DNA from: a virus | DNA length: 23,621 nucleotides | Strand: one strand, 5' to 3' | Virus record (IMG/VR): IMGVR_UViG_3300017917_005342 | Location: 1-23,621 of that record | Part shown: piece after piece, positions 675-22,633 of the stretch | How the letters are laid out: each line of letters starts with the position of its first letter | Position numbering within the stretch: the first letter of the stretch is position 1 | Made by a program: the position numbers and the translations under genes | Notes under the pieces: model-generated | The model's input: only the letters and a program-made list of their open reading frames with translations | Told to the model about the DNA's origin: nothing | Database searches by the model: none

Positions 675-1601
675 TTATTGCCGTACCGTTTTAGTAAAAT
701 ACTTAAACTCATCAACAAGAGTCTTATCTAGTAAACTATAATTACTAGCTCTTGTTGGATTAATATCTATTCCACCGCGTCTTACATACAAACAACTAAC
801 CACAATCTCCTCAGGATTAAAGAGTTTAAATAAACGCATATATATTGTTTCACAGATTTCCTCATGAAAGTGACATTCGTCTCTAAAAGAAACTATATAT
901 TGAAGAAGGGAAGTCGGGTTAATTTCATACTTGCCCTTATAATGTATATATACGTCACCCCAATCCGGTTGTGATGTTACTCTGCAGTTACTTTTTAATA
1001 AAGCAGAATGAAATCTTTGTACTTTAGCTTCAGGAATCTCTATTGCAGATAGTATTGAAGGGTCTTCCGTATAAGACTTGGACTGTATCATTGTAACATC
1101 AATATTTGTTTCCAATGTCGGGTAGTCTTTATTAGAAAAGACTGGTGGGTAATAAAGATCATCAGAAATTGCTGCAGCAGATCGAACATAAACTTTGACT
1201 TCCGTTTCAAGTAATTTAGACAAATCTCTTGCAATTGTATTTTGTAATTCCATTAAAACATGAATAATATTACCTTTAAATACCTGCATATTAAAAGAAT
1301 TCATATACAGTTTAATAGACTTAGATTCGACAATATATTTGTTTCTGCAAGGATAAACAATCTTAGCTATAGCTGCAATTGGCATGCCTTCCTGTGTTAA
1401 GCAAGAAACTTCATAAGCATTCCAAATATCATACCCACAAAAAGGTACAAGACCGTTGACGCTATCATCATTAATGCCTAGATGCTTTCTGTTATTAATT
1501 CTAGGCTCTCGTACTAAAAGTGATGGATCATAAGTAGACTTATAACCAGTTATTTTGCCTAGATGTTTTGAAATATTACTATTATCTAATACCTTGTTCA
1601 T
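675..1601 (-). CDS. queF: NADPH-dependent 7-cyano-7-deazaguanine (preQ0) reductase QueF, bimodular type
   Basis: QueF reduces the nitrile of preQ0 to the aminomethyl group of preQ1. At about 308 residues the protein has the long E. coli-like (YqcD) architecture of two tunnelling-fold halves. Visible hallmarks are LGKITGYKSTYDPSLL near the N-terminus, the substrate/NADPH motif ESKSIKLYMNSFN (about 92-104), the catalytic Cys206 in SNCRVTSQPDWG, Asp213 in QPDWG, and the HFHE motif (His246, Glu247). I chose the ATG at 1601 rather than 1637 because the extra 12 residues are unlike QueF and would lengthen the overlap with the upstream kinase gene. The chosen start still overlaps that gene by 20 bp. 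It is the last gene of the minus-strand operon. In phages QueF implies preQ1-type DNA modification rather than tRNA queuosine. Confidence 0.93.
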   Translation of the reverse strand: MNKVLDNSNISKHLGKITGYKSTYDPSLLVREPRINNRKHLGINDDSVNGLVPFCGYDIWNAYEVSCLTQEGMPIAAIAKIVYPCRNKYIVESKSIKLYMNSFNMQVFKGNIIHVLMELQNTIARDLSKLLETEVKVYVRSAAAISDDLYYPPVFSNKDYPTLETNIDVTMIQSKSYTEDPSILSAIEIPEAKVQRFHSALLKSNCRVTSQPDWGDVYIHYKGKYEINPTSLLQYIVSFRDECHFHEEICETIYMRLFKLFNPEEIVVSCLYVRRGGIDINPTRASNYSLLDKTLVDEFKYFTKTVRQ

Positions 1602-2166
1602 GTAATTTAATTTTAATCTGTTCCATACGTTCTTCAACTGTTCCTTTTAAAATAGTTACCTTATCTTTCCATAAAAATTGATTTAAATAATAATTTTCAT
1701 ATTTATCAATAATTGCATTTCGAAAATCGACATCAATACTTCTTTCACCGTCATCGACAATTTCAATCTCATTAGGATCAGGATAAAAAATAATATCATA
1801 TTTAGAATAAAACCTATACCAATAATGTGTTGCTTGCTGCCATACTTGCACCGTCACTAATTTTTTATCATAAAAATATTCTGTATAAACTAAACCATCC
1901 AATAAACATCTATCATGCACTATACCTTTACACCACTTATCCATAGATACATTATTAAACAAATTCTTTAGTTCCTCGTTTATAATTAACAATTGAGTTA
2001 TATCATTAGCACCCTCTTCATTAATCTGTACATTACATTCATCTCTTATCTTTCTTGTAACTTCGTCAATATAAAAAAATTTGTCAAATATACCCCCACT
2101 ACTTCTCATTTTCTTAAGTAAAGTAGTTTTACCTGAACACTGAGGACCAGTAAACGTAATGTGCAT
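1582..2166 (-). CDS. P-loop nucleoside/nucleotide kinase-like ATPase (AAA_28/NadR-like)
   Basis: This 194-residue protein starts with a strand and a Walker A loop, GPQCSGKTTLL (residues 7-17). DRCLLDG near residue 85 has the position of a Walker B/lid-type Asp-Arg in deoxynucleoside and NadR-type kinases. A later DDGERSIDVDFR segment resembles the substrate-lid region of the AAA_28 family. It probably phosphorylates a nucleoside, a nucleotide or ribosylnicotinamide; the substrate cannot be read from the sequence. It lies 21 bp after the Nmad1-like gene and overlaps queF by 20 bp, so it belongs to the deazaguanine operon and may act on a purine or modified purine, which is inference. Confidence 0.8.
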   Translation of the reverse strand: MHITFTGPQCSGKTTLLKKMRSSGGIFDKFFYIDEVTRKIRDECNVQINEEGANDITQLLIINEELKNLFNNVSMDKWCKGIVHDRCLLDGLVYTEYFYDKKLVTVQVWQQATHYWYRFYSKYDIIFYPDPNEIEIVDDGERSIDVDFRNAIIDKYENYYLNQFLWKDKVTILKGTVEERMEQIKIKLHEQGIR

Positions 2167-2187
2167 AGCTTATTATAATCTATTAAA

Positions 2188-2532
2188 TTACTTACACCAC
2201 TTCTTTCTTTTTACTATCTCAGCAATAATACAATAAACAGAAGTATCTCCAAAAGCATCGAAAACCGGTTCATTAGCAGTTTCAAACGTCTTTTTTCTTA
2301 AAACTAAATTTATTAGTCGTTGTATCTTATCGTTCAATCTTACAACAATAGCAGAGATAGAGGCGTTAATATCTTCTTGTTTTCTTAATTCTGATCCTAA
2401 AGAAATATTATGAGGCCCATAATCAAATTGTTTTTTACAAAACAGTTCGTATTGCTCTCGTTGTATTTTTTTAAATTCTTCACATGTTTCCGGATAAGTT
2501 GACTCGACTGAGGTTATAAAGGAGTTTTCCAT
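2188..2532 (-). CDS. Nucleotide modification associated domain 1 (Nmad1/DUF1599)-like protein
   Basis: This 114-residue all-helical protein has FCKKQFDYGPHN (about 31-42), then RLNDKIQRLINL, and EPVFDAFGDTSVYCIIAEI near the end. The K-x-x-D-Y-G motif, the R-x-x-D-K-x-x-R-L helix and the terminal D-x-x-x-D-x-x-x-Y helix are the pattern of DUF1599/Nmad1. That family is associated with phage nucleotide hypermodification loci and resembles MazG-like helical pyrophosphatases. The biochemical role is not established. It sits 6 bp after the GMP reductase gene and 21 bp before the kinase, within the preQ1 operon, which supports a link to base modification. Confidence 0.78.
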   Translation of the reverse strand: MENSFITSVESTYPETCEEFKKIQREQYELFCKKQFDYGPHNISLGSELRKQEDINASISAIVVRLNDKIQRLINLVLRKKTFETANEPVFDAFGDTSVYCIIAEIVKRKKWCK

Positions 2533-2538
2533 AAAATG

Positions 2539-3495
2539 CTAAGCCTTTATACCATATTGAACATTTGTTAATGCAGATAAATTTATACCACCTGCATAGC
2601 TTATTGCACTTTGAAGATCCTGTTTAATCTCATCTATCTTTTCAAGATAAGTAAAATTATCCGTCTCCATTAATTTCATTGTACCTTCTATATTTTTTTT
2701 ATCAACTTTATTATGTACGCTTGCCGAACCATAATATTGCTTATACCGATGGCCTTTTTCATCGCGAACCACGGGTGCAGGGCTATCCGTACATGAAGCA
2801 AATATTGATCCACACATAACCATAGAAGCACCAGCGACTAATGCTTTTGCTATATCACCATTGCAACGTACCCCACCGTCTGCAATAATAGGTATATTTG
2901 TATCTTGTGCACATTCCTGAATACATGTAAACATGGGATATGTAAAGCCGGTCTTATCTTTAGTAGTACATGCATAACCCCCACCTATTCCAACCTTTAC
3001 AGCATCTGCACCTGCTGAATGTAGATAATTAATTCCTGCAGAAGTAGCTACATTACCGGCAATAATTTTTGTTGAAGGGAGATAATCTTTAATAATTTTA
3101 ATTTGATCAGCAACTTTAGTGTGATGACCATGCGCAACATCAATAGTAATAAAATCTACTCTCATTCCAAAACGACTGATATTTTTTATTAAAGCTTTAT
3201 CCTTTTCTTGAATACCTACGCTTATAGAAATATTATTAAATTTATCTTCTATTGCGTCTTTTATAAAGCCAAAAATATCAACATCAAACCGGTGCATTAT
3301 GTAAAAAAGAGAATGCTGATCTAAAAGTTTGCATATATCGTAATCCACGCAACACTTCATATTAGAAGGGAATACAGGCAAACTAAAATCTTTACCTAAA
3401 AAATTTACAGCGGTATTAATTTTTGAACGACTCTCTATAGAGGAGTGTTTTGGAATTAAAAAAATATTACTGTAATTGTAGCTTATCGATGTCAT
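2539..3495 (-). CDS. guaC: GMP reductase, GuaC type 2 (IMPDH/GMPR family)
   Basis: GMP reductase uses NADPH to deaminate GMP to IMP. The 318-residue TIM barrel shows FLIPKHSSIESRSKI near the N-terminus, DVAHGHH (119-125), AGNVATS, DAVKVGIGGGYACTTKDKTG with the catalytic Cys176, IIADGGVR, and YYGSASVHNKVDKKN followed by EIKQDLQSAISYAGG. The YxGSAS...KKN.EG and the C-terminal DLQS(A/S)ISYAGG blocks match the Bacillus-type GuaC2 better than IMP dehydrogenase, and there is no CBS insert. The usually conserved Gly-Pro-Gly before the catalytic loop reads Gly-Gly-Gly-Tyr. Its start overlaps the end of the formyltransferase gene by 29 bp. Inside this operon it may rebalance guanine nucleotides, or act on a deazaguanine analogue (speculative). 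Confidence 0.88.
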   Translation of the reverse strand: MTSISYNYSNIFLIPKHSSIESRSKINTAVNFLGKDFSLPVFPSNMKCCVDYDICKLLDQHSLFYIMHRFDVDIFGFIKDAIEDKFNNISISVGIQEKDKALIKNISRFGMRVDFITIDVAHGHHTKVADQIKIIKDYLPSTKIIAGNVATSAGINYLHSAGADAVKVGIGGGYACTTKDKTGFTYPMFTCIQECAQDTNIPIIADGGVRCNGDIAKALVAGASMVMCGSIFASCTDSPAPVVRDEKGHRYKQYYGSASVHNKVDKKNIEGTMKLMETDNFTYLEKIDEIKQDLQSAISYAGGINLSALTNVQYGIKA

Positions 3496-4060
3496 TATCT
3501 AGTATTTTATATGCTTTAAAAAAACTAATCCACAAATCTAATGCTACGACTCTCAACTTTTTATAAACGTCATCCAGCGTGCATTGTTGTATATCTACGC
3601 CTTGACTCATTAAAATTTCTCCCTCATCGACTTCCGGAATTACTTTATGAATAACACAACCCGCATGCTTATAATTCTCTTTAAAAGCTCTCTCTTGCGG
3701 ATTAAATCCTTTCAGAGAGGGGTACTTATTAATTAATCCAGGGTGAAGATTATATATTTCATACTTACTACAAATTTCTTTTGGTATAATTCTAAGATAA
3801 CCATGTAATGTTATAACAGGATTATTATATTGAGATAGTATATTTTCATATGATTCTATTGACGGTCTTCCTGGCAACATATACCAAATTGTCCTATTTA
3901 GTTTATGCTCTCTAAACGTAGTCGTGCTAAAAAGTTCTTTATTAATACCATCAGTTTTATGTCGATTAGTGATAATACCGTCTGGATAGATTTCTAAAGC
4001 TTTACAAATATCGTTTATTTCAGTTCCAGTTTGCGAAAAAAAGGCAATCCAAGGTCTCAT
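3467..4060 (-). CDS. GART-fold formyltransferase, probable dPreQ1 formyltransferase (DpdN-like)
   Basis: This 197-residue protein has the formyl-transfer fold of PurN/Fmt. The catalytic triad is visible: Asn104 and His106 in YNLHPGLINKYPSLKG, and Asp145 in GCVIHKVIPEVDEGEIL, equivalent to Asn106, His108 and Asp144 of E. coli PurN. Purine biosynthesis is unlikely to be its role because no other pur gene is near. It overlaps the dpdA-like gene by 4 bp (ATGA), which suggests translational coupling. Published work on phage deazaguanines predicted a formyltransferase, DpdN, that formylates the aminomethyl group of dPreQ1 to give fdPreQ1. With DpdA and QueF beside it, this is the best match, by context plus family. 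Confidence 0.8.
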   Translation of the reverse strand: MRPWIAFFSQTGTEINDICKALEIYPDGIITNRHKTDGINKELFSTTTFREHKLNRTIWYMLPGRPSIESYENILSQYNNPVITLHGYLRIIPKEICSKYEIYNLHPGLINKYPSLKGFNPQERAFKENYKHAGCVIHKVIPEVDEGEILMSQGVDIQQCTLDDVYKKLRVVALDLWISFFKAYKILDNDIDKLQLQ

Positions 4061-4863
4061 CTACGAATAATCTTACGAAACATTTTTAGATTATAATTTA
4101 ATAGATCTATTTGCTCGAGTGTTAATTGATGTTCCATCATATCCGCAAGTTTTGCATTCGGCTTAATATATAAGCCAAAATCTGCATCATATTTTAAATT
4201 ATGCATAGCGGCTACTACCGGATTACTCGTATCACAACTTACTATATTATATACATTTGTATCGACATAATAACGAAATTCTCTAGCTAACGAACACCCT
4301 AAAAGATGATGAGGTTTATTCCACTCCCAAACACCTTTTTCTATTAATTGTGCTATAAATCGCTGTCTACCAGAACAAAACCTTTCTAGTTGTGATACAC
4401 CTTCTCCGGTATATTCATAATAACTAAAATCAAAACTAATTGCAATCATGTCTGCTTCTGAAGACATAAACTTATAACAATTAATTAAATCATGCCATGT
4501 TTTACCTTGTACTGCACCTATAGATCTACATGAATGACTATTCTTAAGGGATTTAATTTTATCATTAAAGTTAATATAACTCTCAACAGTATCACCTGCA
4601 TTTTCAAGTACATCTGGTACAATAAACATATTTGGCTTTAATTCTAAAGCATAATTATAAAATTTTTCACTATCAAAAGCAGTACCGAGTTCAAAAATTG
4701 AATTATCTAATAATACCTCTCTATTATAAGAAGTCTTAGAATTCTTAAAAAAATTATAATATTCAGGATACCTATCAAACAGATGCACTAAAGCGTAGTC
4801 AAAATCATTATAATTTCTTGATTGATCCAATAAAACTAAGGGAGATTCGTGCGATACTTTCAT
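4057..4863 (-). CDS. dpdA: DpdA-like DNA guanine transglycosylase (TGT superfamily)
   Basis: Phage DpdA exchanges guanine in DNA for a 7-deazaguanine base. The 268-residue protein has TGT-type features in order: LLDNSIFELG (Asp53, at the place of the DSGGFQ motif), MFIVPDVLENAGDT (Asp84), IGAVQGKTWHD, HHLLGCSLAREFRY, and NIVSCDTSNPVVA with Asp211 where the TGT nucleophile lies. It is shorter than bacterial tRNA TGT and lacks an obvious C-terminal CxCxxC zinc site, as expected for short phage DpdA proteins. It is the first gene of the minus-strand operon, divergent from the baseplate gene across 39 bp. Subfamily assignment (DpdA2 or another) would need alignment. Confidence 0.82.
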   Translation of the reverse strand: MKVSHESPLVLLDQSRNYNDFDYALVHLFDRYPEYYNFFKNSKTSYNREVLLDNSIFELGTAFDSEKFYNYALELKPNMFIVPDVLENAGDTVESYINFNDKIKSLKNSHSCRSIGAVQGKTWHDLINCYKFMSSEADMIAISFDFSYYEYTGEGVSQLERFCSGRQRFIAQLIEKGVWEWNKPHHLLGCSLAREFRYYVDTNVYNIVSCDTSNPVVAAMHNLKYDADFGLYIKPNAKLADMMEHQLTLEQIDLLNYNLKMFRKIIRR

Positions 4864-8184: not shown

Positions 8185-8415
8185 TTATATTTGATTAGAT
8201 ATTTTTTCTTTTAAACTATCAAAAAAAATAGTTTTTTCTTCTAAGGCTTGAAGTTTTAAACTTTCTAAAATTGAAACGAGAGCATGGACTTTTAACATTT
8301 TTAAATGTTCAACTTTTACATCTACTCCTAGTGGTGATAAGATTTTATCACCAATAAAAAATAAAATAGATAATTCTTCTTCTGTTAAGCTTCTTATGGT
8401 ATCAGATAAAATCAT
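8185..8415 (-). CDS. Small helical protein of unknown function, coupled to nrdB
   Basis: This encodes 76 residues, rich in Leu, Glu and Lys and predicted helical, without a membrane segment or recognised motif. Its ATG overlaps the nrdB stop codon (TAATG arrangement at 8413-8417), so it is probably translated by termination-reinitiation after NrdB. The position suggests a role linked to ribonucleotide reductase or simply co-expression; nothing in the sequence decides between these. Confidence 0.75.
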   Translation of the reverse strand: MILSDTIRSLTEEELSILFFIGDKILSPLGVDVKVEHLKMLKVHALVSILESLKLQALEEKTIFFDSLKEKISNQI

Positions 8416-9479
8416 TATAGTTTTATATCTTCAAAAACATCGTCTGCTATACTTGTATCTCTAGCACCGATTTTATATGCGCTAATTTCTGTTTCCTGTG
8501 GTGCTACTTGTACCTTGCTGCTATCTAGATAACTATCTAACCATCCTGAAATAGGGTTAGTCTTTTCATTAAAAATCTTTTTATATCCTAAAGAACGAAG
8601 TCTGTTATCACACAACCATTTTGCGTATCCACCTAAAACATCAGCATTTAGACCAAGTAATGAGCCCTTGCTAAAAAGATATTGAGCCCATTCAATTTCA
8701 TTCTTAGCTGCTTGCTCATAAAAAGCATATATCTTATCTTCACTCTTTTTTGCAATTGATGTAAATCCTTCTCTATCTTCATCTCTTAGTATCTTTAATA
8801 AATTTTGAGTAATAGCAAAATGCTGTGATTCATCTCGTTGAATAAATTTAATAATTTTTGCATTACCTTCCATAATTCCCCGATATCCAAAATAAAACGA
8901 ACATGCAAAGCTAACATAAAATACTAAACCTTCCATTACGTTAACAGAAAGTATGCAATCAAATATTTTTTGCTTAATGTCTTTTTTTTCATCATTTCCT
9001 AAAATTTTATCGAAATTATCTCTAATTAATTCAGCACGAGAAACGATCTCTTTATCTTCCATAATACTATCAAAAAATGCTGATGCATCCGGGTGTACGT
9101 TATTTAGAAGATAAGAATAGCTATAACTATGAATACCTTCAAATCTCTGCCAGGTATTCATACATATCTCTAGCTCAGGATTTGAAACATAATCTTTTAG
9201 TGAATGTATAGATCTTGAAAGCATACTATCTCCGAGCGTTTGAAATTTTAAATTAGTATCAAATACAAAGCGTTGTTCTCCCTCTAGTTCTTTATAATCA
9301 TTTCTATCTTTTTGTAAAGAAATTTCATGAGGCCACCAAAAAAATTCTTCTTGTTTTTTAAACAATTCAAAAAATACCGGATACTTAAACTTGTCATAGC
9401 GTTGTAGGTTTAATTCTTCCCCAAAAAATAAAGGCTGCTTTGTATAGTCTATTTTTTTTCTATTTAAAACAGTTTTCAT
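8415..9479 (-). CDS. nrdB: Class Ia ribonucleotide reductase beta subunit NrdB
   Basis: NrdB carries the diferric-tyrosyl radical cofactor that activates NrdA for reduction of ribonucleotides. All ligand positions of the E. coli R2 protein are present in the 354 residues: Asp84 (LKFQTLGDS), Glu114 and His117 (FEGIHSYSY), Glu183 (VMEGLVFYVSFACSF), Glu217 and His220 (RDESQH), and the radical Tyr121 seven residues after Glu114. The C-terminus (ISAYKIGARD...FEDIKL) resembles the NrdA-binding tail of NrdAB-type enzymes. It lies 12 bp after nrdA, and a perfect TATAAATA box overlaps the nrdA stop 9 nt before its ATG, so it can also be transcribed alone. Confidence 0.96.
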   Translation of the reverse strand: MKTVLNRKKIDYTKQPLFFGEELNLQRYDKFKYPVFFELFKKQEEFFWWPHEISLQKDRNDYKELEGEQRFVFDTNLKFQTLGDSMLSRSIHSLKDYVSNPELEICMNTWQRFEGIHSYSYSYLLNNVHPDASAFFDSIMEDKEIVSRAELIRDNFDKILGNDEKKDIKQKIFDCILSVNVMEGLVFYVSFACSFYFGYRGIMEGNAKIIKFIQRDESQHFAITQNLLKILRDEDREGFTSIAKKSEDKIYAFYEQAAKNEIEWAQYLFSKGSLLGLNADVLGGYAKWLCDNRLRSLGYKKIFNEKTNPISGWLDSYLDSSKVQVAPQETEISAYKIGARDTSIADDVFEDIKL

Positions 9480-9488
9480 TTAGTATAA

Positions 9489-9496
9489 TATTTATA
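9489..9496 (-). promoter_or_regulatory. Perfect T4-type late promoter box upstream of nrdB
   Basis: TATAAATA on the minus strand lies 9 nt before the nrdB ATG and contains part of the nrdA stop codon. Confidence 0.6.
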
Positions 9497-11753
9497 ATTT
9501 ACATGCACCGCTCGAGCAGTCATTTTCAGATTTATCTAATATCTGTTCTTTATCTCCGTCATCCGTATTATTATAGTATAGACTTATTAATCCCATACTA
9601 TATGCATACAAAATTTCTTTCATGACTTTGCTATCTGGTAAAACATTATTTTGATAATGGCTGTAATTATAGTATATGTTTGTGGAAATTGCCATATCAA
9701 TATATTTTTGAATAATAGAATTTACATTAATAATACCGGTGTTATCTTTAAAATTATAACACAACTCATAGTTATTCTCGTATTTACCTATTCCAGGAAC
9801 TAAAACTGGTAGTTTACCGGTTTTAGATGTCTTAAAAGTAATTAGTGACCGTACAGGTTCTATTCCATTTGTCGAGCTTTGAATGACTGAGCTAGATTCA
9901 CACGGCATGCAACAAGATAATGTAGAGTGTCTAAGGCCGTATTTTAAAATATCTTTTTTTAAGCTATCCCAGTCGAGAGCTAATTTTCTTTTACAAATAT
10001 CATCAACATTCTTTTTATATGTTTCAACTGGTAAAATGCCTTTTGAATATTTTGTTCTATTAAATTTTTCGCAAGCCCCTCTTTCTTTTGCTAATGTTAA
10101 GCTGGCTTTTAAAAGATAGTATTGAAAATGTTCCATATATTCATCGAGTACAGAGAGGGTGTTTCTATTATTATAAGATAAATCGTTCTTTGCAAAATAT
10201 GCAGCAAGATTAGTTATACCAATTCCCAAGCTTCTTCTTTTTTTAGCAAAATTTTCTGCAGCAGGATTAAAGTATTGCTGTATATCTATAATCTCCTCCA
10301 AAAATCTAACTACTAATTCGCATGTCTTTTCTAAGTCTTTCCAATCTTTAATTTCAAGCATATTGATAGCTGATAAAATACACATACCAATTTCTGCGTC
10401 CGTATCTTTAAAGTCGCTTAAAGGGATAGTAGGGTGAATGACTTCTGTACATAAATTACTCATAGTTACTGTATCCAGCCATGCTCCATGCTCGTTAGCA
10501 CTATCAACATTTAAAATATAAATTCTGCCCGTTTCGACTCTTTCTTTAATAATAAGAGAAAATAATTTTCTAGCAGAGATTTTTTTCTTTTGTTTAATTT
10601 TTTTGTCATTTTCGCATTCAACATAAATAGAATCAAATTTCGATGTTCCCCATGCATTTGTTAGTTGAGGCACCGAATGGGGACTGAATAAAGTTATATC
10701 TTCGTTTTTAATCACTCTATCATAAAAAAGTTTTGAAAGACCAATAGTATAATCAAGCTTACGAACCCGGTTATCATCTGTACCTGCATTATTCTTTAGT
10801 ACCACAACATCTTCTATTTCGTAATGCCAGAATTGAATATTTGTGGTGGCTGATCCACCTCGTAACCCGTTTTGCTGCCAAGCTTTTACGGAAGCTTCAA
10901 AAATTTTTAAAAAGGGTATAATTCCAGTATGGACTACTTCACCATTATTAACACTTGAACCGATTGCTCTGATTCTAGAGACATCAATACCAATGCCACA
11001 GCGACTGGCTGTAGCTATGGAGACCGCGGTGCCACTTGCCGTAATAGATTCTTTATTATCGTCTACACCGATCAGACAGCAGCTAGCATACATTTTTGAA
11101 TTTGTTCTTACGCCTGCCATTATAGGCGTCGGTAAATTAATCTTATGCTTAGAAATAGCATTATAGAATCGTCGAACATACTCGATACGATGCTCTTTAT
11201 CGTAATTAATAAACGCATAGCAACTAATTAAAATATAAGCGAATTGTGGTGTTTCATAAATCTTATCCGTTACTCGATTTTTAATTAAATATTTGTCGCA
11301 TAACTGCTTTATACCTGCGTAGGTAAATAAAAAGTCGCGATCATGATCTATAAATTCACCAATTTTATTAATTTCATCTTCGCTATATTTTTCAATTATA
11401 GCTTGGTCATATATTTTTTTTCTTAACCCAGCATGTATAATATCAAGAAGTCTCTGCGCCACTCTACCACCCCAAACATCTTTACGGAGCTGATAATTTA
11501 ATAATCTGCTAGCAACAAATTGATAGTTGGGTGTTTCAAGATTAATTAAATTTGCAGCAGATTCAATTAATACTTGATGTATTTCTTTTGTAGAGATATT
11601 TTCTTTAATGTTAAGATTTGCATTTATTTCTACATCAGAAAGACTGACACCGTCAATACCGTCTATAGCCCAATTAATAACTTTATGAATTTTTTCTATA
11701 TTAAATTTTTCGAGATTACCGTCACGTTTCTTTACAAATATTTGTTTATTCAT
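9492..11753 (-). CDS. nrdA: Class Ia ribonucleotide reductase alpha subunit NrdA
   Basis: This 753-residue protein, close to the 761 of E. coli, reduces ribonucleoside diphosphates. An N-terminal ATP-cone is visible (FVKKRDGNLEKFNIEKIHK, with 55-70 completing it). Catalytic residues are Asn433, radical Cys435 and Glu437 in MSNLCTEVIHPT, the redox pair Cys225 (ASCCLIG) and Cys458 (GMCILSAIN), a PCESSSVIQSSTNGIEP loop, and the C-terminal shuttle cysteines Cys746 and Cys751 in CSSGACKL. It is full length with no intein or intron. A CATAAATA box lies 20 nt before the ATG. It heads the nrdA-nrdB-small protein operon and supplies dNTPs for phage DNA synthesis. Confidence 0.97.
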   Translation of the reverse strand: MNKQIFVKKRDGNLEKFNIEKIHKVINWAIDGIDGVSLSDVEINANLNIKENISTKEIHQVLIESAANLINLETPNYQFVASRLLNYQLRKDVWGGRVAQRLLDIIHAGLRKKIYDQAIIEKYSEDEINKIGEFIDHDRDFLFTYAGIKQLCDKYLIKNRVTDKIYETPQFAYILISCYAFINYDKEHRIEYVRRFYNAISKHKINLPTPIMAGVRTNSKMYASCCLIGVDDNKESITASGTAVSIATASRCGIGIDVSRIRAIGSSVNNGEVVHTGIIPFLKIFEASVKAWQQNGLRGGSATTNIQFWHYEIEDVVVLKNNAGTDDNRVRKLDYTIGLSKLFYDRVIKNEDITLFSPHSVPQLTNAWGTSKFDSIYVECENDKKIKQKKKISARKLFSLIIKERVETGRIYILNVDSANEHGAWLDTVTMSNLCTEVIHPTIPLSDFKDTDAEIGMCILSAINMLEIKDWKDLEKTCELVVRFLEEIIDIQQYFNPAAENFAKKRRSLGIGITNLAAYFAKNDLSYNNRNTLSVLDEYMEHFQYYLLKASLTLAKERGACEKFNRTKYSKGILPVETYKKNVDDICKRKLALDWDSLKKDILKYGLRHSTLSCCMPCESSSVIQSSTNGIEPVRSLITFKTSKTGKLPVLVPGIGKYENNYELCYNFKDNTGIINVNSIIQKYIDMAISTNIYYNYSHYQNNVLPDSKVMKEILYAYSMGLISLYYNNTDDGDKEQILDKSENDCSSGACKL

Positions 11754-15593: not shown

Positions 15594-16061
15594 TTAATAA
15601 ATTATATCGTATTCCCAGGGAAAGTCAAGCCATATTTTTTTGTCAAAACCTTTAATAAAACAGTCTGGCACAAAAGAAGTTTTGTGTTTTATATAAAGAG
15701 TTGCATAATAAACATTTCTTAAATTACATTTATCTAGAATATTTTTTGCCATATAAAGAGTGCCTCCAGTATCGGACAACTCATCTAAAACAAGTACATT
15801 TTTATTTTTAGCTTCTTTACAGAAATTATTTCCAAGTTCTTGAATAATGACAATATTTTGTTTTTCTTTATTGCTATAACTTCTCATTCCTAAATTATAA
15901 ACATTTTTTACTCCGAGAACATGTGATGCTATAGAAGCGGGTACCATAGCCCCCCGTCCTAAAAAAACAATAATTTCTGGTCTAAAATACTGATTTATTC
16001 TGTAAGCTAAATTATACGAATCAGTAATTACGGTTGGCCAATCGATTTTTATTTTGTCCAC
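15594..16061 (-). CDS. Type I phosphoribosyltransferase, xanthine/guanine (Gpt)-like
   Basis: This 155-residue protein would transfer a phosphoribosyl group from PRPP to a purine base. It shows FLGRGAMVPASIAS (about 33-46) and the PRPP loop VLVLDELSDTGGTL (about 89-102). The DE-x-S-D-T-G form and the final LDFPWEYD segment resemble xanthine-guanine phosphoribosyltransferases. The start is a GTG at 16061 following an AATAAATT stretch. Substrate specificity cannot be proven by eye. In this phage it could salvage guanine set free when DpdA swaps bases, or host purines. A terminator follows the gene. Confidence 0.85.
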   Translation of the reverse strand: MDKIKIDWPTVITDSYNLAYRINQYFRPEIIVFLGRGAMVPASIASHVLGVKNVYNLGMRSYSNKEKQNIVIIQELGNNFCKEAKNKNVLVLDELSDTGGTLYMAKNILDKCNLRNVYYATLYIKHKTSFVPDCFIKGFDKKIWLDFPWEYDIIY

Positions 16062-19632: not shown

Positions 19633-20190
19633 ATGATTCAAACAGATTTACCTCTAACTGTTTCTCAAGAAATAGAAAAAATTTTTACACAAATACCTTT
19701 TATAAAAAATAGTAAACCAGAAGCTATTTATATAGAAAAACTTAAAAAAAATATTAGTGATTACAATTACTATATAAATGAAAATTTTTTAACAAACAAA
19801 GCTATTATTGACTCTAGTGAATACAAGAGAATGTATAATTTATTTCCTGCGATTACTTCTTATAGACCTGAATTAGAAAAATTTTTATACAACAAAGGGT
19901 TTGAAATCATAGAAAATAGAACATCGGGGTGTTTCTATTATCCCCCAGATGGATTTATGTCGTGGCACACGAATTATAAAAGACAGGATTGGAGAATTTA
20001 TATAGTAAAAAGCTTACATGGAGATAGTTTTTTTCGATACACCGAACAAGATAACATGATAACCGAATATGATCCCCAGGGGTATTCGTATAGAATATTT
20101 TACGTAGGTGATGAAGCCCGGCCTTTCTGGCACTGTGTATACGGGGGAAGCGGGAGATATAGTATTGGATTTAGATTAATGAAAATTTAA
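19633..20190 (+). CDS. Phage 2OG-Fe(II) oxygenase-like protein
   Basis: This 185-residue protein has a double-stranded beta-helix core: FYYPPDGFMSWHTNYKRQDW (His112, Asn114), DSFFRYTEQD, FWHCVYGG (His167) and RYSIGFRL (Arg175/Arg181). This WHTN ... SFFRY ... WHCV ... R-x-S-I-G-F-R layout recurs in T4-like marine phages and is annotated as 2-oxoglutarate/Fe(II)-dependent. The usual iron-binding HxD reads His-x-Asn, so activity or metal binding may differ. Substrate unknown. It ends with a 4-bp tail-to-tail overlap with the desaturase gene. Confidence 0.75.
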   Translation: MIQTDLPLTVSQEIEKIFTQIPFIKNSKPEAIYIEKLKKNISDYNYYINENFLTNKAIIDSSEYKRMYNLFPAITSYRPELEKFLYNKGFEIIENRTSGCFYYPPDGFMSWHTNYKRQDWRIYIVKSLHGDSFFRYTEQDNMITEYDPQGYSYRIFYVGDEARPFWHCVYGGSGRYSIGFRLMKI

Positions 20191-21140
20191 AAAGTACACT
20201 CCTTAAAAACACCATACACACCATTTTTAGTTATTTGAGCATTCTCTATATAATCTTTATTTTTTAATAGCTCTTTATGTAGAGCTTTTACGTTATACGA
20301 AGGTACGGTGGGGAAAAGATGATGGTCTAAGTGGTAGCTTAAATTCCAGTTAAAACCAAAAAATATTTTATCCAGTAATGTGGGGTACATAGTACGAGAA
20401 TCATCTATTTTTGTTTTTGTAAGACCAAAATGTTCACATATACTTCTTATTCTAAATACAAAAGGAAGATATAAGATAATAGGTAATATCCAAAATAATA
20501 TATAATAGAAAGCCCAGTTAAAATACAATAATATAAAAAACAATGTCCCGTTAAATAAGGTTATTCCTATAGCTTCTTTTTTATTGTTATTGTAAGTAAT
20601 ATGGTCGAGGGTACGAGATACAGTTGCGCCTCTTAAAAAATATTTTATTCTATCATAAAATGTTTTGTTCTTATTAAGAAAAGTTACCATATAATGAATT
20701 CCAAAAACGTATTTAAACACTGTTTTTAAAAACATAGTTTTTTTCTGGGGAAATTTAAATTCTATATTATCTTTTTTATAGATATAATCCGGATCATCAT
20801 CCGTATTATTATTTTTATGATGGAGAAGGTGACGGGTTCTATATTTTTGTTGAGAAGAAAACATGGGAAAATATAAAAATATGTTTGCAATCCATTCGTT
20901 TATTCTTTTATTTCTACATATACGGTAGTGCACACTATCATGGGCTATGGCTGAAAGACTGTGAATACGTGCTCCAATAAGTATAATAGCCAATAATACA
21001 GTAAAGATATTAAAAAGCTTTACTGTAAAAAACATAATACTAAAAATAGCAAAATATTCTAAAAAAATTTGAAATAAAGATATAAAAGTATTTGGCTTTG
21101 AAAGCTTTACTAAAATCTGATCACTTAGTCTAATCTTCAT
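20187..21140 (-). CDS. Membrane fatty-acid desaturase
   Basis: This 317-residue integral membrane protein has the three histidine boxes of the acyl-lipid/acyl-CoA desaturase family: HDSVH (67-71), HLLHH (104-108) and HLDHH (270-274), which bind the di-iron centre. Hydrophobic segments lie near 22-60, 82-95 and 195-235. It would introduce double bonds into membrane acyl chains using O2 and an electron donor, probably supplied by the host. It is full length and appears intact. A desaturase is an unusual auxiliary gene for a myovirus and could keep the host membrane fluid during infection (inference). Confidence 0.92.
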   Translation of the reverse strand: MKIRLSDQILVKLSKPNTFISLFQIFLEYFAIFSIMFFTVKLFNIFTVLLAIILIGARIHSLSAIAHDSVHYRICRNKRINEWIANIFLYFPMFSSQQKYRTRHLLHHKNNNTDDDPDYIYKKDNIEFKFPQKKTMFLKTVFKYVFGIHYMVTFLNKNKTFYDRIKYFLRGATVSRTLDHITYNNNKKEAIGITLFNGTLFFILLYFNWAFYYILFWILPIILYLPFVFRIRSICEHFGLTKTKIDDSRTMYPTLLDKIFFGFNWNLSYHLDHHLFPTVPSYNVKALHKELLKNKDYIENAQITKNGVYGVFKECTF

Positions 21141-22468: not shown

Positions 22469-22540
22469 TGGACCGCGTAGGGCTCGAACCTACAACCAAT
22501 TGGTTAAAAGCCAACTGCTCTACCATTGAGCTAGCAGTCC
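22469..22540 (-). tRNA. tRNA-Lys (anticodon UUU)
   Basis: The 72-nt cloverleaf has acceptor stem GGACTGC / GCGGTCC (one T-G pair), D stem GCTC/GAGC, anticodon stem GTTGG/CCAAT with loop CTTTTAA (anticodon TTT), T stem GTAGG/CCTAC with loop TTCGAGC, and discriminator A. CCA is not encoded. Its AAA/AAG lysine codons are abundant in this AT-rich genome. Confidence 0.93.
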
Positions 22541-22551
22541 GTAATCGGTCT

Positions 22552-22624
22552 TGGGCGTACTAGGATTTGAACCTAGGACCAAGGCATTATGAGTGCCCTG
22601 CTCTGACCGCTGAGCTATACGCCC
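22552..22624 (-). tRNA. tRNA with CAU anticodon, probably tRNA-Ile2 (lysidine type), else elongator Met
   Basis: The 73-nt cloverleaf has acceptor GGGCGTA / TACGCCC, D stem GCTC/GAGC, anticodon stem GGGCA/TGCCT with loop CTCATAA (anticodon CAT), T stem CTAGG/CCTAG with loop TTCAAAT, and discriminator A. Around the anticodon and variable loop, GAGCAGG..ACTCATAAT..CTTGGTC is closer to bacterial tRNA-Ile2, whose C34 is changed to lysidine by TilS to read AUA, than to elongator tRNA-Met. Confidence 0.85.
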
Positions 22625-22633
22625 AATAGGTTC

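Follow-up and report, generated by a model that had tools for sequence, protein, structure and literature searches.

A DpdA3-type gene cassette predicted to place formylated preQ1 in the DNA of a T4-like phage

The DNA analyzed here, a window of 23,621 bases, is the entire IMG/VR virus record IMGVR_UViG_3300017917_005342 and is probably a fragment of a larger genome. Between positions 4863 and 675 of its minus strand lies a six-gene cassette encoding, in order, a TGT-fold protein, a GART-family formyltransferase, a GMP reductase, an Nmad1/DUF1599 protein, a P-loop kinase and QueF. An initial annotation had predicted that this set is an operon of a T4-like phage for the formation of 2'-deoxy-7-(formylamino)methyl-7-deazaguanine (fdPreQ1) in DNA, a modification that would confer resistance to restriction. 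All six open reading frames (ORFs) lie where that annotation placed them and are tightly spaced, with three overlapping junctions and two gaps of 6 and 21 bases. The T4-like origin also stood, with a T4-type major head protein, a head protease and a hub/lysozyme-like gene around the cassette in a close relative. The cassette falls among the 7-deazaguanine DNA modification systems already known; we have seen no description of a variant that combines GMP reductase, Nmad1 and the kinase.

The first gene (4057..4863, minus strand) encodes a protein of 268 amino acids that we assign, from its homology, fold and conserved residues, as a DpdA3-type guanine/7-deazaguanine transglycosylase. No TGT profile of Pfam or NCBIfam matched this protein, and a profile search of the PDB sequences with the DpdA alignment was empty as well; its relation to the TGTs is thus visible only by fold comparison. 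DpdA2, too, is missed by sequence searches with DpdA (PMC6884629), and the profile miss therefore does not exclude membership in the TGT/DpdA family. An AlphaFold model built from 14 sequences (pLDDT 89.7) has the (beta/alpha) barrel fold of the TGTs, and it aligns over 230-232 residues with the archaeal TGT 1iq8 (Z 17.8) and with the DNA preQ0 insertase DpdA 7ui4 (Z 17.2). D53, D84, Q119, G189 and D211 are invariant in 14 relatives; from their order, D53, D84, Q119 and D211 may plausibly correspond to Asp102, Asp156, Gln203 and Asp280 of TGT. By tblastn, the proteins of the Campylobacter phages CP220, CPt10 and CP21 and of the Flavobacterium phage immuto are 43-44% identical to it at 98-99% coverage (E about 1e-50), and the immuto homolog carries the annotation DNA guanine transglycosylase. 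We take the Campylobacter CP220-type homologs to be the published DpdA3, a type reportedly so named by Cui et al. in 2023. The TGT/DpdA membership claimed in the initial annotation is hence upheld by fold and homology, while the curated profile match is missing. That annotation did not contain the further point that the window DpdA, as judged from homology, is of the Campylobacter CP220 type, which is associated with complete replacement: in CP220 and CPt10, 100% of dG is replaced by dADG (PMC8306585). It is very likely that the cassette performs a DpdA-type exchange. At one related locus (L114, 4155-5068), DpdA is broken into two ORFs separated by about 45 bases, the result of a frameshift, an insertion or an assembly error.

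The nature of the base that would be inserted is suggested by two further genes. QueF, the preQ0 reductase (675..1637, minus strand), has both domains (QueF_N 4e-32; QueF 4e-22), the catalytic Cys218 and Asp225, and the NADPH-type motif ESKSIKLYMNSF (motif ESKSIKLY); it scores under both NCBIfam equivalog cut-offs (257 bits for TIGR03138, cut-off 293). Judged from its relatives, it more probably starts at ATG 1601, giving 308 amino acids, than at TTG 1637. The formyltransferase (3467..4060, minus strand; PF00551 Formyl_trans_N 2.7e-16) retains a triad, Asn104/His106/Asp145, that is unchanged in eight relatives. The catalytic residues that the initial annotation had read in these two enzymes are accordingly confirmed. 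The PDB relatives of the formyltransferase are PurN proteins, and it is 45% identical to immuto gp204. Being a GART-family protein with the Asn-His-Asp triad and encoded with DpdA and QueF, it has the features of DpdN, the fdPreQ1 formyltransferase that Cui et al. (2023) are said to have predicted, and we designate it a predicted preQ1 formyltransferase of the DpdN type. QueF, a DpdA-type exchange and a formyltransferase together make fdPreQ1 the best guess for the product, and we consider it the probable one; the prediction is a good one, though products of this type are already known. The similarity of the formyltransferase to PurN, Fmt and PurU is moderate, below every curated NCBIfam cut-off, and its substrate is unreadable from sequence. 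The enzyme could thus act on a different amine or in some other way, leaving DNA with plain dPreQ1 or an unknown derivative. We find this outcome unlikely, given the intact triad and the location of the gene next to that of DpdA in a cassette with the amine-making QueF.

The distribution of the cassette was surveyed by scanning IMG/VR with alignments of DpdA, the kinase and Nmad1, each of which returned at least 80 loci (an earlier DpdA scan returned 20). Cassettes were counted from the best 80 loci per scan, and an “intact” cassette was defined to include the kinase and QueF. Related gene orders recur in at least 105 distinct intact cassettes; the six-gene set is therefore not a product of chance. 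GART and Nmad1 are found together in 72 of the 105, with GMP reductase inside the cassette in 27, outside it in 8 and not nearby in 37. The others comprise nine with GART and a MazZ-like gene, four with GART and neither of these, and 20 with just DpdA, kinase and QueF. That QueF accompanies GART in 85 of 85 intact cassettes is true by construction of the count; on untruncated contigs among the scanned loci, GART was never found near DpdA without QueF. Two contigs of 4-5 kb among the Nmad1 loci (L257 and L258) carry GART-Nmad1-kinase-QueF without DpdA. The place of DpdA upstream of GART is occupied in L257 (173-1063) by an ORF that resembles, on reading its sequence, a sugar nucleotidylyltransferase. 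In close relatives, the cassette is situated between the T4-type major head gene and the hub/lysozyme-like gene. On the DpdA tree, GART needs at least 3 changes, Nmad1/MazZ at least 4 and GMP reductase at least 12, implying that gain, loss or relocation of GMP reductase near the cassette happened repeatedly. Many phages carry GMP reductase and PurN-like genes, and the cassette might on these grounds be thought to boost the purine or queuosine-tRNA metabolism of the host without modifying phage DNA. We deem this very improbable, as DpdA homologs occur in phages with 100% replaced guanine and the cassette order is kept in about 100 distinct phage contigs.

FolE, QueD, QueE and QueC are missing from the window, as is expected of a 23.6-kb fragment; any copies that this phage has would lie beyond its ends. 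The initial annotation had proposed that preQ0 comes from elsewhere in the genome or from the host, and the former is well supported for the family: at a second site on the contig, FolE is present in 12, QueD in 14 and QueC in 15 of 18 large relatives, and QueE is present in G025, the one second-site region that was read. Further, a metagenome-bin contig (L273) has QueE, a phosphoribosyltransferase, QueD, FolE, DpdA, GART, kinase, QueF, QueC and PRA-PH within about 9 kb, where the names QueE, QueD, FolE and QueC rest on reading of the sequences.

The kinase (1582..2166, minus strand; AAA_28 2e-15) has the P-loop GPQCSGKT, a DR motif and a profile of the type of thymidylate kinases (TMPK), deoxynucleoside kinases (dNK) and the NadR kinase. 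It matches phrog_2107 (thymidylate kinase) and, weakly by profile, deoxynucleoside and thymidylate kinases in the PDB. We predict a (deoxy)nucleotide kinase, with modified dGMP as the predicted substrate. A new finding of this work is that the cassette constantly includes this kinase. The kinase and QueF are found at 75 of 80 DpdA loci, the remaining five being contig ends, and no IMG/VR DpdA contig that is long enough to judge is without the kinase. Conversely, DpdA is missing at ten kinase loci; all of these are contig ends but L180, which carries DpdA at another place on its 171-kb contig. Among 50,697 phage records, homologs of the kinase (E 0.01 or better) are confined to genomes with this DpdA type, plus four Streptomyces phages. 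A second AAA_28/thymidylate-kinase-like protein adjoins QueE at the preQ0 site of the relative G025 (L260, 5040-5780), and most Firehammervirus records have two kinase places.

The association extends to divergent phages. In the cultured relative vB_FspM_immuto (Immutovirus), a phage of Flavobacterium sp. LMO8, the order DpdA, GART, thymidylate-kinase-like protein and QueF is identical, and FolE/QueD/QueE are a few kb off; it differs from the window in that no GMP reductase or Nmad1 was found, a PRA-PH-type pyrophosphohydrolase stands beside DpdA instead, and the kinase is about 29% identical. The Campylobacter phages CP220 and CPt10 (Firehammervirus) also have a homologous DpdA (43%) followed by a homologous kinase, but there is no QueF or GART near DpdA, an HD + P-loop gene is upstream, and the product is the amide dADG. 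The kinase thus follows DpdA directly in CP220, as it does in the divergent CC_R7, where it sits between DpdA and DNA polymerase, whereas GART stands between the two in immuto. In phiST and MA9V-3, whose DpdA is distant, P-loop proteins of other Pfam families are encoded directly upstream of dpdA. Escherichia phage CAjan, by comparison, likewise has a TGT-like transglycosylase (DpdA1) with preQ0 genes, but its replacement of G is partial, tblastn with the window DpdA did not return it, and no P-loop gene was found in its DpdA1 cluster. In the Brevundimonas phage StAshley (L276, 5631-7465), a DNMK dNMP kinase, FolE and a phosphoribosyltransferase lie beside ribonucleotide reductase, and tblastn with the window DpdA found no match; this gene set may represent another nucleotide-level route. 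In Campylobacter phage NCTC12673, whose DNA is reported to contain deoxyinosine, matches to GMP reductase or the kinase did not rise above noise within the first 50 kb.

Two other cassette genes, and a neighbor, point to nucleotide-pool chemistry as the kinase does, a feature that the initial annotation did not contain. The GMP reductase (2539..3495, minus strand) is an IMPDH/GMPR barrel (PF00478 1.1e-54) with its cysteine loop (Cys176) kept. The initial annotation had named it correctly: its best PDB match is the GMP reductase 1ypf (248 bits), and this match and NF003966 (330.8 bits, cut-off 344), its top matches, place it with GMPR rather than IMPDH. In relatives the gene is inside the cassette or across the hub gene. 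The neighbor, a phosphoribosyltransferase gene (15594..16061, minus strand; PF00156 4e-10), is not adjacent to the cassette and is a possible partner in guanine salvage; in L273 a PF00156 gene belongs to the DpdA cluster itself, and in L274 and immuto such genes are found near DpdA. Each exchange frees a guanine, and the two enzymes could return it to IMP. Such recycling fits exchange at either level, nucleotide or DNA.

The Nmad1/DUF1599 protein (2188..2532, minus strand; 114 amino acids) was assigned through its family. Eight of 12 aligned relatives match PF07659 (best E 8.6e-5), in keeping with the Nmad1-like assignment made earlier; the window protein alone has no Pfam match, and its AlphaFold model is poor (pLDDT 48). 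The formyltransferase and Nmad1 are fused at one locus (L173, 5002-5976) in a single ORF of 324 amino acids. In nine cassettes, the position between GART and the kinase that Nmad1 holds elsewhere is taken by a MazZ-like gene for a dATP/dGTP diphosphohydrolase (PF18909). The two are mutually exclusive among the GART-bearing cassettes (72 with Nmad1, nine with the MazZ-like gene, none with both), and when each was searched for, four Nmad1 genomes had no PF18909 and two PF18909 genomes had no Nmad1; few independent events lie behind this pattern. Other pyrophosphohydrolases recur near DpdA: PRA-PH adjoins it in immuto and L274 and is part of the L273 cluster, and MazG is found in phiST. Nmad1 may act with the formyltransferase as its partner, or it may be an analog of the dGTP hydrolase.

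From the gene families, their order and their conservation, we infer a product, a level of exchange and roles for Nmad1, the kinase and GMP reductase. preQ0 would come from FolE/QueD/QueE/QueC, whose genes would lie in another part of the genome, and QueF would reduce it to preQ1. The DpdA3-type enzyme would exchange guanine for preQ1, and the GART-family enzyme would add a formyl group to the aminomethyl group. If the exchange takes place on free nucleotides, a hydrolyzing enzyme (perhaps Nmad1 here, and a MazZ/MazG-type enzyme in relatives) would convert dGTP to dGMP, on which DpdA3 would swap the base. The cassette kinase would then phosphorylate the modified deoxynucleoside monophosphate, a host enzyme would finish the triphosphate, and the phage polymerase would incorporate it; the guanine released would be recycled by GMP reductase and probably the phosphoribosyltransferase. 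This scheme resembles that of the Z-genome (2-aminoadenine) phages with PurZ/MazZ/DatZ, in which dGTP is also taken to dGMP, the nucleotide altered and the triphosphate rebuilt, and PF18909 is shared with some cassettes; those phages differ in using other chemistry (PurZ) and no transglycosylase. Where replacement is complete, a changed nucleotide pool is usually behind it, as in T4 hydroxymethylcytosine and Z-DNA. This consideration, together with the constant kinase, the P-loop genes upstream of distant dpdA and the recurring pyrophosphohydrolases, leads us to favor slightly the nucleotide level over exchange in DNA. A modified dGTP has been mentioned as proposed for Campylobacter phages (PMC6884629).

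Several points weigh against exchange at the nucleotide level. During Firehammervirus infection, Crippen et al. (2019) reportedly detected no dADG phosphates in the cells; Cui et al. (2023) are said to regard insertion as post-replicative for all DpdA types. We know of no TGT homolog that uses a mononucleotide. The activity and specificity of the kinase are only predicted, and neither PF18909 nor Nmad1 was found when searched for in immuto and CP220. Homology between Nmad1 and the MazZ-like protein is unsupported (hhalign E 0.11, not significant). The charge, isoelectric point and small size of DpdA were dropped as signs of nucleotide specificity, as DpdA1 of CAjan is acidic too and has only 306 amino acids. 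Further, the DpdA of phages 9g and CAjan puts 7-deazaguanine into DNA (PMC6884629), and a 2025 paper gives DpdA as an example of nucleic-acid-level modification (PMC12783734). In the main alternative, fdPreQ1 is made but DpdA3 swaps guanine in finished DNA, the published view of DpdA, with the kinase, Nmad1 and GMP reductase as general helpers in nucleotide metabolism. T4-like phages have many genes for deoxynucleoside triphosphates anyway, and the ribonucleotide reductase genes nrdB (8415-9479, minus strand; phrog_86 1e-119) and nrdA (9492-11753, minus strand; phrog_84 1.4e-279) are next door in the window as context. DNA-level exchange leaves unexplained why the kinase is constant, also beside divergent DpdA genes, and why it is absent from the CAjan DpdA1 cluster; we see it as a real possibility that is clearly short of an even chance. 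We tentatively propose, at only a little under an even chance, that DpdA3-type enzymes are TGT homologs that swap the base of free deoxyguanosine nucleotides, after which the kinase turns the modified nucleotide into a substrate for the polymerase. Taken whole, the best explanation, on which we would place even chances, is that fdPreQ1 replaces guanine in the phage DNA, with exchange slightly likelier on the free deoxynucleotide.

Elsewhere in the window, also on the minus strand, are a fatty acid desaturase gene (20187-21140; PF00487 1.9e-36) whose product has no PHROG match, and adjoining genes for tRNA-Lys(ttt) and tRNA-Met(cat) (22469-22625).

The survey points to a wide occurrence of formylated preQ1 among T4-like phages known from metagenomes. 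How guanine comes to be replaced completely depends on whether 7-deazaguanine enters phage DNA before replication or after it, and the constant kinase and recurring dGTP-type hydrolases make the level of exchange directly testable. The cassette also offers a functional link for Nmad1/DUF1599. If exchange on free nucleotides is true, Nmad1/DUF1599 would be a dGTP-hydrolyzing or formylation-linked partner, and complete guanine replacement would be the work of a nucleotide-pool system, convergent with those of the T4 hydroxymethylcytosine and Z-DNA phages.

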